Virus record (IMG/VR): IMGVR_UViG_3300024358_000491
Span: 1 to 44,489 of that record
Direction: 5' to 3' (one strand)
DNA from: a virus
DNA length: 44,489 nt
Made by a program: the position numbers and the translations under genes. The notes beneath the pieces are model-generated. The model was given only the letters and a program-made list of their open reading frames with translations. It searched no databases and was not told the DNA's origin. Shown piece after piece: positions 5,896-10,115 of this stretch (position 1 is the stretch's first letter; each line of letters begins with the position of its first letter).

Positions 5896-5971
5896 GCGCT
5901 AGTAGCCAAGTGGAACGGCAGGAGCCTCTAAAACTCCAGAAGCGTGAGTTCGATTCTCACCTAGCGCACCA
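5896..5971 (+). tRNA. tRNA with anticodon CUA (amber suppressor tRNA)
   Basis: A complete 76-nt cloverleaf. The acceptor stem GCGCTAG/CTAGCGC is perfect over 7 bp, with discriminator A and an encoded CCA (5969-5971). The T-arm is GTGAG/CTCAC around TTCGATT. The anticodon arm is GGAGC-CTCTAAA-ACTCC (5921-5937), with the last stem pair (C-A) mismatched. The anticodon at 5928-5930 is CTA, which reads UAG. The D-arm (GCCAAGTGGAACGGC) and short variable loop look most like tRNA-Gln, so glutamine insertion is an inference. A gene with an in-frame TAG lies 2.3 kb downstream. Confidence 0.9.
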
Positions 5972-5981
5972 AAGGATTTAT

Positions 5982-6218
5982 ATGCAGTTTAAAACCAAAG
6001 AAGAAGCAGAAGCATTCGTTCGCAAGATCATGGGACCTCCTAAGCGTAGGCTAGAAGGTGCTGAACACGATCGAGTTTGGTTAATGCTGCAAATGACAGA
6101 ACCGGTCAGAGAGACTAACAATCAACATAGCTGGTGTGCAGAATACAACATTGGCGGAATAATGTACGATGTGCATTATTTCCCAGAAGAAGATCCGTTT
6201 ATAGAGCAGTATCTATAA
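5982..6218 (+). CDS. Hypothetical protein (78 aa)
   Basis: Begins at the ATG 10 bases after the tRNA CCA; the open frame that extends upstream runs through the tRNA and is not real. Starts MQFKTKEEAEAFVRKIMG, rich in charged residues, with aromatic-rich strands (WCAEYNIGGIMYDVHYF). AGGATTT upstream may act as a ribosome binding site. No recognised domain. A TATAAATA octamer overlaps its last codons. Confidence 0.7.
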   Translation: MQFKTKEEAEAFVRKIMGPPKRRLEGAEHDRVWLMLQMTEPVRETNNQHSWCAEYNIGGIMYDVHYFPEEDPFIEQYL

Positions 6219-6221
6219 ATA
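6214..6221 (+). promoter_or_regulatory. T4-type late promoter octamer TATAAATA
   Basis: Exact match to the T4 late-promoter consensus, overlapping the previous stop codon. It would start transcription near 6228, giving an ~70-base leader ahead of the zinc-ribbon gene with hairpins GTGGG-aaggt-CCCAC (6226-6242) and GGTAC/GTACC. Confidence 0.6.
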
Positions 6222-6298
6222 GATGCGTGGGAAGGTCCCACAACCAACACTCTTTAAATGATAGGTACTTAGAGTGTGTACCGTAAAAGGAGAAAGTA

Positions 6299-7066
6299 AT
6301 GATGTACGAATCAAAATTAGCCGCGGCTATCAAAGTTAAAGGCAAAGTCCTAAGAGAATTTAAGGACACCGTTTATGTTCCGTTTGGATCAGAATATTCA
6401 ATACTACTTAAGAATCTACATACGACCCGTGCTGTCGTTAACGTATATATCGACGGTGATGATATGGTCCCTGGTGGCATTGTTCTTAACGCTGGACAAG
6501 AAGTCGACCTCGAGCGATCAGTCAAAAACGGCAATCTCACAGAAGGCAACAAGTTCAAGTTCATCGAAAGAACAGGCGCAGTGGAGCAACACCGAGGTGC
6601 CAAACTTGAAGACGGACTGGTAAGAATCGAATTCCAATTTGAACAGCCTGTTCGTCCAATTACCTGGACAACTAATACTGCCTATTACGGCGATAATAAA
6701 ATCTACCCACAAGGCGGAATTCTGCGTGGATCTACAGCAGATTGGGCTGCACCGGCAGGATCAGTAACCTGTTCTGCAACTATGGATAGTTATAGTACAG
6801 CATCTGCTCAGGCATTTGTTAATCAAGTTAACGATGTTGGCATTACCGTTCCAGGTAGCAAGAGTGAGCAAAAGTTTACCACTACCTATGTAGGTGCATT
6901 AGAAAGTACTAAACATTCTATGGTGTTTAAGATTTTGGGAGGAGAAGCCGTTAAAGAAGCTGTTACGGTTAAACATAAACCAAAATGCGTAACCTGCGGT
7001 AAACAGAATAAGGCAACTGCTAAGTTCTGCGTAGAGTGTGGCACAGCACTAGAAATTTTTGCTTAA
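6299..7066 (+). CDS. Hypothetical protein with C-terminal zinc ribbon
   Basis: 255 residues. The body is beta-rich (VNVYIDGDDMVPGGIVLNAG; a variable segment near residues 60-110). The C-terminus carries two CxxC knuckles (CVTCGKQNKATAKFCVECG, about 230-250), a zinc ribbon of the rubredoxin-like type. AGGAG is 8 bases before the first of two ATGs. It has its own late promoter and leader, and a stem-loop follows, so it is a single-gene unit, probably highly expressed. Structural or secreted function cannot be decided from sequence. Confidence 0.8.
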   Translation: MMYESKLAAAIKVKGKVLREFKDTVYVPFGSEYSILLKNLHTTRAVVNVYIDGDDMVPGGIVLNAGQEVDLERSVKNGNLTEGNKFKFIERTGAVEQHRGAKLEDGLVRIEFQFEQPVRPITWTTNTAYYGDNKIYPQGGILRGSTADWAAPAGSVTCSATMDSYSTASAQAFVNQVNDVGITVPGSKSEQKFTTTYVGALESTKHSMVFKILGGEAVKEAVTVKHKPKCVTCGKQNKATAKFCVECGTALEIFA

Positions 7067-7073
7067 TCTGTCC

Positions 7074-7096
7074 AAAGGGCCTTGACTGGCCCTTTT
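7074..7096 (+). terminator. Probable intrinsic terminator
   Basis: Inverted repeat AAAGGGCC-ttgact-GGCCCTTT followed by TT, just after the zinc-ribbon gene stop. The U-run is short, so termination may be partial. Confidence 0.55.
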
Positions 7097-7144
7097 AATG
7101 GCACTATAATTAAATCGTTGTTTAAACTAATTGAAAAGACTCAG

Positions 7145-8221
7145 ATGACATATTTCCTAAAACAAGGCAATTCATATACCGTTAGCAAAAAAGAATCTCT
7201 TGATCTTCATGAGCACCTACCTGCTGGCAATTATGTTATTAAGAAAAACGAAATGACTGGTCAATTGTATCTTGAAGCAATTGATAAATTTGCAATTGGT
7301 AGCAAAGTCTACGGAGACACTATTAAACGTGCAGATCGTATTCTTAATACATTTCAAAGTCGTCCTTCTACTACCGGTGTAATGCTTACCGGAGAAAAAG
7401 GTTCTGGCAAGACCTTGCTGGCTAAGATGCTGTCTGTAAAAGGCTATGAGCAAGACATTCCTACTATTGTAATTAATGCTCCTTGGTGTGGAGATTTGTT
7501 TAATGCGTTTATTCAAAGTATTGAACAACCGTTGATTGTAATTTTTGACGAGTTTGAAAAAGTATACGACGAACAAGAGCAAGAAGCTATGCTTACACTC
7601 CTTGACGGTGTGTATCCAACTAAGAAGTTGTTCGTGCTAACCTGTAACGACAAATGGCGTGTGAATAGTCATATGCGTAATCGTCCAGGCCGTATCTTCT
7701 ATTCACTAGAGTACAAAGGTCTTGATGCAGATTTTATTCGTGAATATTGCCATGATAACCTTAAGGCTAAAGAGCATATCGAAAAGATTGTAGGTATTGC
7801 AGGAACTTTTGACGAGTTCAATTTTGACATGCTTAAAGCACTTGTTGAGGAAATGAATCGTTATAACGAAACTCCTCAAGAAGCAATGAGTATGCTTAAT
7901 ACCAAACCCGAATATGGTGACAGCTCTAGCTATACAATCAAGCTGGTCGTTAATGGCGAAGAAGTCAAAGACACTAGCTACGAGGAAAAAGAGTGGCACG
8001 GTAACCCGCTTAACAAGAGTGTTAGCGTTAGCTACAAGGTGGTTGAGCAAGAAGGTACTGATGAGGAAGTTTGGGATTGGGAAAGTGTTCGTTTTAGCCC
8101 TGCTGAACTTAAGAAAATCGATGCCAACGGCACTAAGTATGTCTTTACAAAAGACGATGGTGTGAGCTTGATCCTTACTAAGGTTAAGACCAAAGGTTAC
8201 TCTTACTGGGATGCCTTTTAA
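7145..8221 (+). CDS. AAA+ ATPase
   Basis: 358 residues from the ATG at 7145 (upstream extension overlaps the terminator). Walker A GEKGSGKT at 83-90, Walker B LIVIFDEFEK (Asp135, Glu136), sensor-1 Asn168 (LFVLTCNDK) and arginine fingers in MRNRPGRIFYS (about 178-183). The ATPase domain covers roughly 70-240; a beta-rich C-terminal region (about 260-358) is acidic and unrecognised. It is a typical phage AAA protein, perhaps an unfoldase or remodeller. It is not ClpX or ClpA (no zinc or N domain). An AATAAATA octamer overlaps its stop. Confidence 0.9.
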   Translation: MTYFLKQGNSYTVSKKESLDLHEHLPAGNYVIKKNEMTGQLYLEAIDKFAIGSKVYGDTIKRADRILNTFQSRPSTTGVMLTGEKGSGKTLLAKMLSVKGYEQDIPTIVINAPWCGDLFNAFIQSIEQPLIVIFDEFEKVYDEQEQEAMLTLLDGVYPTKKLFVLTCNDKWRVNSHMRNRPGRIFYSLEYKGLDADFIREYCHDNLKAKEHIEKIVGIAGTFDEFNFDMLKALVEEMNRYNETPQEAMSMLNTKPEYGDSSSYTIKLVVNGEEVKDTSYEEKEWHGNPLNKSVSVSYKVVEQEGTDEEVWDWESVRFSPAELKKIDANGTKYVFTKDDGVSLILTKVKTKGYSYWDAF

Positions 8222-8227
8222 TAAATA
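8220..8227 (+). promoter_or_regulatory. T4-type late promoter octamer AATAAATA
   Basis: Matches NATAAATA. It precedes an ~70-base leader (to 8302) containing hairpins AAGTCC-tggacacgc-GGACTT (8229-8249) and CAGG/CCTG, then AAAGGA before the ATG at 8303. The layout is like the zinc-ribbon gene leader. Confidence 0.5.
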
Positions 8228-8302
8228 ACAAGTCCTGGACACGCGGACTTAAAAACGAGGTGGGAGACAGGTGGAAGCCCTGCACTTTTAAAGGAAAATA
8301 AA

Positions 8303-8881
8303 ATGACAAAATAGATTGAATATGCTTGTAAGGATGTAGTGTTCCATTTTAATAAAAAACACTTAGAAGACCAAACCGTTCCCATGTGGGTCTTAAAATT
8401 TCATGGTGAAACATTGTATGTTAATCACGTAGACTGCTCAGTTCCTTGGAGTACTAAGGAAACACCTGATAATAGTCATACTAAAGGTAGCATCAAAGTC
8501 AAGGACGTATTGTTACGTGTCAATGACAACAACGAAGCTACAATCTCCACACTAACTATCTATGACAAATATCGACTTCGTAATCAGAAGTTAGGTATCA
8601 CTCGAATTATGTTCAGTCCGGGTACGGCTTTTCATAAAGCTCTCCAAAAAAATGAGTTTAAACATAGTCCGTTTAAAACTATACAAGGTCGATGTAGTAG
8701 TTCGTTTGTCATCTGTGATCTATTAAACAAAGCAGAAGTCACAATGGCTGGATTAAAGTTTATGGGGCAGTTTAGGATTGTCAAACCAAACGAGAGTTAT
8801 TTCCAAGAGTATGATGAAATTAAAGGAGATAACATTCCTGTAGACTATAGTCATCCTAGTACACCTTTTGAGTATTCATAA
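8303..8881 (+). CDS. Conserved phage hypothetical with in-frame TAG at codon 4
   Basis: An AAAGGA ribosome binding site lies 8-10 bases before ATG 8303. The frame reads M-T-K, then TAG (8312-8314), then IEYACKDVVFHFNKKHLEDQ and on to a TAA at 8881. The residues after the TAG look like the genuine N-terminus of this phage family (the WSTKETPDNSHTKGS motif follows). If the TAG is read through, the product is 192 residues. Alternatively translation starts at GTG 8339, which has a weak AAGGA before it, giving 180 residues. A tRNA that reads UAG is encoded at 5896, which favours regulated or routine read-through. A sequencing error or a dead codon remain possible. Confidence 0.75.
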
Positions 8882-8918: not shown

Positions 8919-9626
8919 ATGATATTACATGCATTTGGTGATAGTTTTGTTTCGGGGTACCAGGACGATTTTATCCATATATTAGGATACGATCCTGGTC
9001 ACGGAATGGAATTTGAAGAACGAGAAGAATATCTAAAATACAATGTAAGTTTTGCAGCATTAATTGCCAAACATCTTGGATTTAAATTTAAAAATTATGC
9101 AGAAAGAGGGAGTGGAAATTTTCCTCAGCTTGATAAATTAACAACAAGATTGCGAGCCGGAAAAATAAAATCTGGAAACATTGTATTATTTGGAATTACA
9201 ACGCCAATTCGAGATAGACTTTTTTTTGCCGAAGATGTTAAAATTCATAATGAAGAATTAAGTGGACCAATTTTAATCGATAGAGAACTAATAACATCTC
9301 AAAGATTAGACAAAGTAATTGATTCTGATTATTTTTATATTCTTTGTATATTAGAACAACTTGAAAGAATTTTTGGAATAAAAATAATTAAATTTAATCT
9401 ATTTGGAACACCTCCTCCCGTTCCTTATAATTTTATAAATTATATCAACGAAGGAACATTAATTGATATTTTAAATGATACATGGGGGCAAAAAATAAAA
9501 AATCAGTATCATACCAATATTGATGTTCCGGCGGGTTACGAAAATTTGTATACTTTGAAAAAACATCCGTCGATTGAAGGGCATAAAAAAATAGCATCTT
9601 GGTTTATTAATAATGTTAAACTATAA
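8919..9626 (+). CDS. SGNH/GDSL-type hydrolase
   Basis: 235 residues with the SGNH blocks: GDSF at 8-11 (catalytic Ser), a GSGN segment near residue 66 and HPSIEGHKKIASWF near the C-terminus (catalytic His). Related enzymes are esterases or deacetylases acting on lipids, glycans or peptidoglycan. There is no signal peptide. It is preceded by its own promoter and precedes the tmRNA. A second, smaller SGNH protein is encoded at 11414. The substrate is unknown. Confidence 0.8.
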   Translation: MILHAFGDSFVSGYQDDFIHILGYDPGHGMEFEEREEYLKYNVSFAALIAKHLGFKFKNYAERGSGNFPQLDKLTTRLRAGKIKSGNIVLFGITTPIRDRLFFAEDVKIHNEELSGPILIDRELITSQRLDKVIDSDYFYILCILEQLERIFGIKIIKFNLFGTPPPVPYNFINYINEGTLIDILNDTWGQKIKNQYHTNIDVPAGYENLYTLKKHPSIEGHKKIASWFINNVKL

Positions 9627-9639
9627 TTGTTAAATATAA

Positions 9640-9957
9640 GTTATTGCTGTATGAAGCAGATAGAAAAGTGTTCTGGACGCGGGTTCGACTCCCGCCTGGT
9701 CCACCAGAGAGAGCATTAGAGAACCGTTACTAAGGGCTTTGGCCGCGGTGTAGCAGACGTCATGCTAGTGTTCTCCCTAATGGGCCAGTCAAGGTTTCGA
9801 CAGGGCAAAGAGTAAGGAAGTGGACAGCACGGGAATGTGAAACCCGTAGGGTTGGGGGAACCCGGCCGAAGAAGCAAAAAAAGTAAACGCAAACGATACA
9901 CGTTTCGCATTAGCCGCTTAAGGCTTTGGGTAGCCATACCTCGAAACAGAAAATGGT
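9640..9957 (+). ncRNA. ssrA: Circularly permuted two-piece tmRNA
   Basis: The 3' (acceptor) piece comes first: T-arm GCGGG-TTCGACT-CCCGC (9679-9695), CTGGTCC (9696-9702), A, and encoded CCA (9704-9706). The 5' (coding) piece starts at 9782 with GGGCCAG, which pairs with CTGGTCC over 7 bp including a G3-U70 wobble, the alanine identity pair, then the GGTTTCGACAGGG D-region. The tag frame at 9889-9921 reads ANDTRFALAA then TAA, behind AAAAAAAGTAAAC, close to the E. coli tag context. A terminator follows. It rescues stalled ribosomes. Exact ends of each piece are estimated. Confidence 0.93.
9707..9781 (+). other. Intervening segment of permuted tmRNA
   Basis: Between the acceptor CCA and the coding piece. 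TTAG-AGAAC (9716-9724) pairs with GTTCT-cc-CTAA (9770-9780), closing a stem-loop that should be cut out when the two tmRNA pieces are matured. Confidence 0.75.
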
Positions 9958-9986
9958 AAAAATGGCGTCTTTTGACGCCATTTTTT
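9958..9986 (+). terminator. Intrinsic terminator of the tmRNA gene
   Basis: AAAAATGGCGTC-tttt(g)-GACGCCATTTTTT: a long perfect stem followed by a U-run, right after the coding piece of tmRNA. From 9987 to 10115 there is no ORF; it holds the leader of the outer-membrane barrel gene, with a TATATACT-like -10 near 10010 and a CAGTGTTACTACTG palindrome. Confidence 0.88.
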
Positions 9987-10115
9987 ATTGCATCTGCACA
10001 AGTAAGACTATATACTTGCTAATGATCAGTGTTACTACTGATTATTTTTCTGTCGTGTTGTTATAGGTTTAATACAAAAAGTTATCACACACGATTACAC
10101 ATAAGAGGATATTAT

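Follow-up and report, generated by a model that had tools for sequence, protein, structure and literature searches.

The window analysed here is the whole of the linear virus record IMGVR_UViG_3300024358_000491 from IMG/VR (44,489 bases). It encodes a tRNA with the anticodon CUA and a gene whose reading frame meets a TAG at codon 4 and then continues. We refer to such a start-proximal stop as the gate, to genes that carry one as gated, and to the protein family of the window gene as FHFNK, after its most conserved motif. The features of the locus are as follows.

5896..5971, + strand: tRNA gene, anticodon CUA (amber suppressor), called by ARAGORN; acceptor GCG...CGC, A at position 73 (A73), encoded CCA
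8290..8295, + strand: Shine-Dalgarno (SD) site AAAGGA of the gated gene, read from the sequence; 108 of 112 gated contexts have an SD-like site ahead of the ATG
8303..8311, + strand: start codon and two further codons (M-T-K) ahead of the gate, read from the sequence
8312..8314, + strand: the gate, in-frame TAG at codon 4, next base A; TAG lies at codon 2-7 in 112 of 116 distinct contexts
8315..8560, + strand: conserved FHFNK domain, about 80 residues, supported by alignments and by the ratio of nonsynonymous to synonymous polymorphism (pN/pS)
8561..8881, + strand: C-terminal domain of about 105 residues, found in long members only, with the TAA stop; supported by alignment and an AlphaFold2 model (mean predicted local distance difference test, pLDDT, 89.7)
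9614..10012, + strand: phage transfer-messenger RNA (tmRNA) gene, tag ANDTRFALAA, called by ARAGORN; a frequent neighbour in related loci

A preliminary description of the window had placed a CUA tRNA at 5896-5971 and, at 8303, an AAAGGA site followed by M-T-K-TAG and an open frame; ARAGORN called the tRNA, and the second arrangement is present in the sequence. The tRNA can be read as a full cloverleaf with a mismatch-free acceptor stem of 7 base pairs (bp) and a gene-encoded ACCA end. From 8303 to 8881 the gene reads ATG ACA AAA TAG, then IEYACKDVVFHF and onward through 188 open, conserved codons to the TAA at 8879-8881.

Conservation of the gate in the FHFNK family

Two scans of IMG/VR returned 160 loci, the nearest 80 and 80 more distant ones. 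All 80 of the nearest relatives begin with ATG, one to three codons, TAG and IE(Y/F) or similar, and 76 of the 80 distant relatives from the second scan are also gated, with the TAG at varying distance from a conserved cysteine. When identical contexts were removed, 112 of 116 were gated (ATG, zero to five codons, TAG). The gate occupied codon 3 in 74 of the distinct gated contexts and ranged from codon 2 to codon 7, never later; the base behind it was A in 108 contexts and G in 4. UAG followed by A is a favourable context for suppression. Aligning the homologues, as the preliminary description had proposed, showed that almost all relatives keep the TAG themselves.

That description had also taken the residues behind the TAG for the true N-terminus of the family. 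The first phage homologues match the window protein from the start of the conserved block, so the residues just behind the TAG belong to the protein, and homologues do not begin at the position of GTG 8339. In Rhizobium phage RHph_I1_18, a homologue lies in an unannotated stretch that reads M-S-E-F-M-TAG-N-E-S-C-R-E-V-I-F-H-F and ends just before a tRNA-CUA gene. Behind the TAG, pN/pS was 0.33 over codons 1-8 and 0.24 over the 72 that follow. A start-proximal stop is therefore conserved ahead of a protein that is under selection, the combination looked for in a dedicated nonsense gate.

Scans against Pfam and PHROG matched no family to FHFNK, and the window protein itself gave no match to peptidyl-tRNA hydrolase 2 (PTH2; PF01981) in them; a PTH2 gene elsewhere in the window was not found by tblastn. 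A profile search of the PDB gave no convincing match, and the AlphaFold2 model (predicted template modelling score 0.66) had no PDB match in Foldseek at E < 0.001, its best viral match being an uncharacterised phage protein. No FHFNK relatives were found in bacterial genome contigs or plasmids.

A linked suppressor tRNA

A CUA-anticodon tRNA fold was found in the window and in 48 distinct homologous sequences with CTA. Among the loci with full flanks, 79 of 93 had a tRNA-CUA gene within 6 kilobases (kb) of the FHFNK gene; the two were on the same strand in every case (79:0), the tRNA was upstream in 75, and the median distance was 942 bp. The tRNA bodies vary widely, and the GCG/CGC acceptor end with A73 is common to 46 of the 48 distinct sequences; acceptor ends differ between lineages. 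The earlier suggestion that the tRNA body is Gln-like was not supported, because the family has A73, whereas bacterial tRNA-Gln normally has G73. A leucine identity was also considered, since the GCG/CGC-A73 end resembles the acceptor ends of the phages' own tRNA-Leu, but the long variable arm is lacking; no amino acid was therefore assigned.

A converse scan used the tRNA-CUA pattern alone. FHFNK or PTH2 was encoded in the fetched piece of 53 of the 80 viral loci that it returned, a scan not fully independent because the pattern was modelled on the tRNAs of this family. The gated ORFs (open reading frames) in these loci comprised 45 with TAG, 13 with TGA and 12 with TAA. A possible third gated family was noted at L409:6182-6502 (loci are designated L and a number), where ATG-x-TAG and 104 open codons lie about 170 bases downstream of a tRNA-CUA gene; this ORF had no clear Pfam match.

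Gated PTH2 genes in related and cultured phages

At three loci (L114, L130 and L148) the FHFNK gene is ungated, and the gene upstream of it starts with ATG-x-TAG and has a product that resembles PTH2. Where the FHFNK copy has no TAG, the gate usually sits on such an upstream PTH2-type gene. Sinorhizobium phage Phosso begins this gene with ATG AAG TAT TAG followed by a PTH2 domain (Pfam, 1.3e-20), has an ungated FHFNK gene downstream, as do jumbo phages of its type, and carries two tRNA-CUA genes to go with its TAG gate. All 12 IMG/VR loci with a Phosso-type PTH2 were gated, eleven by TAG and the twelfth by TGA.

ATG, one or two codons and TAG also stand ahead of the PTH2 domain in well-known jumbo phages, among them CBB, GAP32, Kaldavass, XbC2, BF, ME3 and Arash and in the uncultured LR756511. 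In XacN1 and RAS14, ATG AAG TAG precedes an HD-like domain fused to PTH2. A tRNA-CUA gene was identified in every TAG-gated phage of this CBB/GAP32/XacN1 group except LR756511, and 20 of 22 IMG/VR relatives were gated. Matches to PF01981 above the cut-off were obtained for Phosso, LR756511 (2.8e-6) and the C-terminal half of XacN1 (1.8e-5); CBB, XacN1 and others matched more weakly than Phosso. The stop lies at codon 3-8 in gated PTH2 genes. An automatic classification of the gates at every locus produced a PTH2 table that was noisy and contained hits in the wrong frame; hand-checked sets were used instead.

In existing annotations the gated gene of GAP32 (L205), CBB (L204) and Phosso (L002) begins at an ATG or GTG inside the true frame, in Phosso an ATG, with loss of conserved residues; that of BF (L208) and RHph_I1_18 (L001) is omitted altogether.

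Matching of gate codon and suppressor anticodon

Within a phage, the codon at the gate and the anticodon of the suppressor correspond, TAG with CUA in most cases and TGA with UCA in Agrobacterium phage Atu_ph07. The PTH2 gene of Atu_ph07 begins ATG ATT GGC GAA CAC TTT TGA, and the tRNAs fetched from this phage include one suppressor, with the anticodon UCA, and none with CUA. The genome paper reported the single UCA suppressor tRNA and named no target gene (PMC6102473). Atu_ph07 is the best single test of the match between gate and suppressor; the TGA-gated twelfth locus of the Phosso-type set is identical to it in gate sequence and was taken as that phage again. At L191:5960-6303 we also noted a PTH2-like gene with an apparent TAA gate, ATG TTG CCA CAC ACG TAA.

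PTH2 is ungated in RaK2, Baka and Hallingskeid. Scanned in pieces, their whole genomes contained no suppressor tRNA. The suppressor is absent from these three phages with ungated genes, but not from L126, and Sinorhizobium phage phiM19 has a tRNA-UUA.

TAG usage and the genetic code

In a mechanical set of 76 non-overlapping ORFs in the window, 47 ended in TAA, 26 in TGA and 3 in TAG, in line with the rarity of TAG stops noted earlier. All three TAG stops listed in the preliminary description exist (16617, 34226 on the minus strand, and 37476), although one of the three ORFs, which overlaps tRNA genes, is probably spurious. Scarcity of TAG alone is weak evidence, because its share of stops was 21/304 in RaK2 and 29/361 in Hallingskeid, which have no suppressor tRNA, against 8/328 in GAP32, which has one.

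A control scan for SD-ATG, up to 7 codons, a stop and at least 60 open codons covered the first 160 fetched loci and the window. It returned 184 TAG, 23 TGA and 20 TAA cases, and the TAG count fell to 25 when the FHFNK family was left out. TAG still ends genes, and early in-frame TAG is not in excess outside the gated families; the code is therefore not reassigned. The preliminary description had held that TAG is not fully reassigned.

An out-of-sample check on other suppressor-bearing phages

Suppressor tRNAs without an identified target have been reported in several phages, and those considered here are the same tRNAs that their discoverers described. In XacN1, two tRNA-CUA genes were found, read-through of 18 amber stops was tried, and no target could be identified (PMC5852040); in Stenotrophomonas phage Summit, a suppressor tRNA was likewise reported with no target identified (PMC9022506). 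Those authors examined the ends of genes, whereas the gate described here lies at their starts.

Summit was used as an out-of-sample check and has neither FHFNK nor PTH2. Summit and its relatives DLP_3 (L454) and DLP_5 (L455) share an almost invariant mini-ORF, AGAAGGAGAAGACC ATG AAG TAG GTC TAC AAG CCG CC(G/C) TAA, which in Summit lies at L453:1529-1571 (MZ326862, approximately 49428-49470), upstream of gene 069 and the tRNA-CUA gene. DLP_5 has a different tRNA-CUA body and the same mini-ORF. Read-through would yield an 8-residue peptide ending Pro-Pro-stop, and the mini-ORF may encode a leader peptide with an amber gate. It lends support to the general idea, in an arrangement that differs from the gated FHFNK and PTH2 genes.

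Neighbouring genes

Genes for tmRNAs with differing tag peptides often lie near the gated gene, as in the window (9614-10012) and at L006, L010, L011, L034, L044, L066, L080 and others. A small coil-like ORF stands between the gated PTH2 and FHFNK genes at L114:5708-6002 and L130:5720-5992; in Phosso and Atu_ph07 the equivalent stretch forms the N-terminus of the FHFNK protein, by fusion or by splitting. At L126:4595-5770, a gene for a CCA-adding enzyme lies directly ahead of a divergent tRNA-CUA gene and an FHFNK gene.

A probable stop-codon gate opened by a phage tRNA

Many large phages thus have a stop codon just behind the start of one gene, usually in an operon with a protein acting on tRNA. 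Comparison of sequences shows that the gate is conserved, that selection at the protein level acts on its product, that a suppressor tRNA with the matching anticodon is linked to it, that the codon has been swapped once, and that the gate shifts to whichever gene comes first in the operon. These results strongly support the predicted decoding of the gate, and we put at roughly 0.88 the probability that this is a natural nonsense gate close to the start codon which a phage tRNA opens. They also back the earlier proposal that synthesis of one protein depends on the presence of the amber-reading tRNA, without genome-wide reassignment of TAG; a timed action of the switch is plausible.

A ribosome starting at 8303 would meet UAG at codon 4. 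As long as the phage tRNA is absent, release factor 1 (RF1) would terminate translation after M-T-K and no protein would be made. Once the tRNA-CUA had been transcribed, matured and charged by a host synthetase, it would compete with RF1 for UAG, so that the ribosome could continue and the FHFNK protein would be produced. In related phages a PTH2-type peptidyl-tRNA hydrolase is the gated product or leads it, and the gate codon fits the phage's own suppressor, TAG with tRNA-CUA and TGA with tRNA-UCA. Such readthrough would be expected in infected cells. Since both the gene and the tRNA would be needed, the arrangement would act as a coherent feed-forward (AND) switch giving tight, delayed production of proteins that may act on tRNA or in ribosome rescue. 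The gate may serve for delay or leak-proofing, or for sensing termination.

Several observations weigh against this interpretation. The support for readthrough is comparative, and many contigs are related and some nearly duplicate, so the counts are not independent events. About 15% of the full-flank FHFNK loci have no tRNA-CUA within 6 kb, and a strict tRNA-CUA pattern found none in several long FHFNK contigs, although this type of pattern misses real ones (e.g., that of ME3). Locus L126 has a tRNA-CUA yet an ungated FHFNK gene, the gate of L317 is out of frame, and L315 is a further exception. No suppressor tRNA was located in LR756511, and the assignment of the GAP32-type protein to PTH2 is weak in Pfam, with E values of 0.014-0.0003 that fall short of the gathering score. 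Only a single phage shows the TGA/UCA swap. On the 33-kb fragment L191, which has the TAA gate, there is no tRNA-UUA; conversely, phiM19 has an ochre suppressor tRNA-UUA (L267:4863-4938) but an ungated PTH2, and a search of this phage for a TAA-gated gene to pair with it gave no convincing candidate.

The main rival is that the gate senses a shortage of release-factor activity and not the supply of tRNA: with little RF1 available (RF2 in the case of a TGA gate), a resident suppressor would win and a rescue-type PTH2 would be made. The decoding evidence is the same for this reading, the protein behind the gate is often a peptidyl-tRNA hydrolase, an enzyme whose substrates arise when translation fails, tmRNA genes commonly lie nearby, and the in-frame UGA that autoregulates RF2 offers an analogy. 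However, RF2 autoregulation needs no dedicated tRNA, whereas the tRNA here is linked and co-oriented with the gene. Sequence cannot separate release-factor supply from tRNA supply, and we regard termination sensing as possible but the less likely purpose.

Much less probable is that there is no readthrough and that ATG-x-TAG forms a leader mini-ORF, which would tune translation by reinitiation or peptidyl-tRNA drop-off while the protein starts downstream (in the window, at GTG 8339). A GTG or TTG does lie between the TAG and the FHFNK motif in 68 of 108 contexts, 41 of them with an SD-like site, which also counts against a nonsense gate, and the Summit-type mini-ORF could only be a leader. An ATG is found there in only 2 of the 108 contexts, however, the GAP32-type PTH2 has neither ATG nor GTG ahead of its first conserved strand, and purifying selection begins directly behind the TAG. 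A leader would also leave both the linked suppressor tRNA and the TGA/UCA swap unexplained.

A required special N-terminal residue, as in pyrrolysine decoding, is very improbable. A pyrrolysine system would show two such parts, a dedicated tRNA-CUA and an in-frame TAG that is conserved, but a switch is preferred because the TAG has no fixed place in the alignment; moreover, Atu_ph07 has TGA in its place, acceptor ends vary between lineages, and the tRNAs look like ordinary class I tRNAs. Partial or full reassignment of TAG across the genome, as in recoded gut phages, has still less in its favour: the suppressor tRNA and the rarity of TAG stops speak for it, but TAG still ends genes and early in-frame TAG outside the gated families (25) is no commoner than TGA or TAA. 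A stop at codon 4 would normally mean a pseudogene or sequencing error, for which we found no other support and which is hardly credible when the same stop recurs at the same place in more than 100 distinct sequences drawn from many metagenomes, and also in cultured phages that were sequenced independently, with the reading frame kept and protein-level selection continuing behind it.

Relation to known systems

A nonsense gate opened by a phage tRNA has parallels in several systems, and our searches of open-licence papers found no prior description of one near the start of a gene. In gut-phage recoding (crAss-like phages and others, with TAG read as Gln), a phage tRNA-CUA likewise reads TAG in a standard-code host, and a role in timing has been proposed; there, many genes hold many in-frame TAGs, whereas here TAG still functions as a stop, the effect is confined to one start-proximal site within a single gene or operon, and TGA can substitute for TAG. 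In RF2 (prfB), a start-proximal stop in a translation-factor gene also decides whether the full-length product is made, but by +1 frameshifting. Pyrrolysine and selenocysteine decoding likewise employ a dedicated tRNA to read a stop in a few genes; the phage gate differs in having no fixed residue position and an ordinary class I tRNA. Compared with plain PTH2, the phage genes have the early stop and would depend on the suppressor tRNA, and those of XacN1 and RAS14 have the HD-like domain in front.

A further likeness is to a synthetic coherent feed-forward "leak dampener" based on suppressor tRNAs, which markedly lowers leak in E. coli and functions with both amber and opal codons (Ho et al. 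2020; PMC7969014). The logic is the same, a gene with a nonsense codon and a co-regulated suppressor tRNA. The dampener was engineered in E. coli, whereas the phage version would be natural, widespread and tied to PTH2 and FHFNK genes.

Taken together, these findings make it fairly likely that standard-code phages have repeatedly evolved or kept a dedicated switch, in which one operon for handling tRNA or ribosomes is locked by a start-proximal stop (TAG, in some cases TGA and perhaps TAA) that only the phage's own suppressor tRNA unlocks; this natural feed-forward AND gate would be a main reason for the presence of suppressor tRNAs in such phages. The suppressor tRNAs of phages with the ordinary code, unexplained until now, thereby gain a likely target, and for XacN1 and its like a concrete one can be named, which makes the question testable in cultured phages. 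The gates also expose a class of genes that is lost or shortened in automated annotation, since pipelines discard any gene whose third codon is a stop. If the interpretation is true, these phages would provide a natural precedent for synthetic suppressor-tRNA feed-forward loops.

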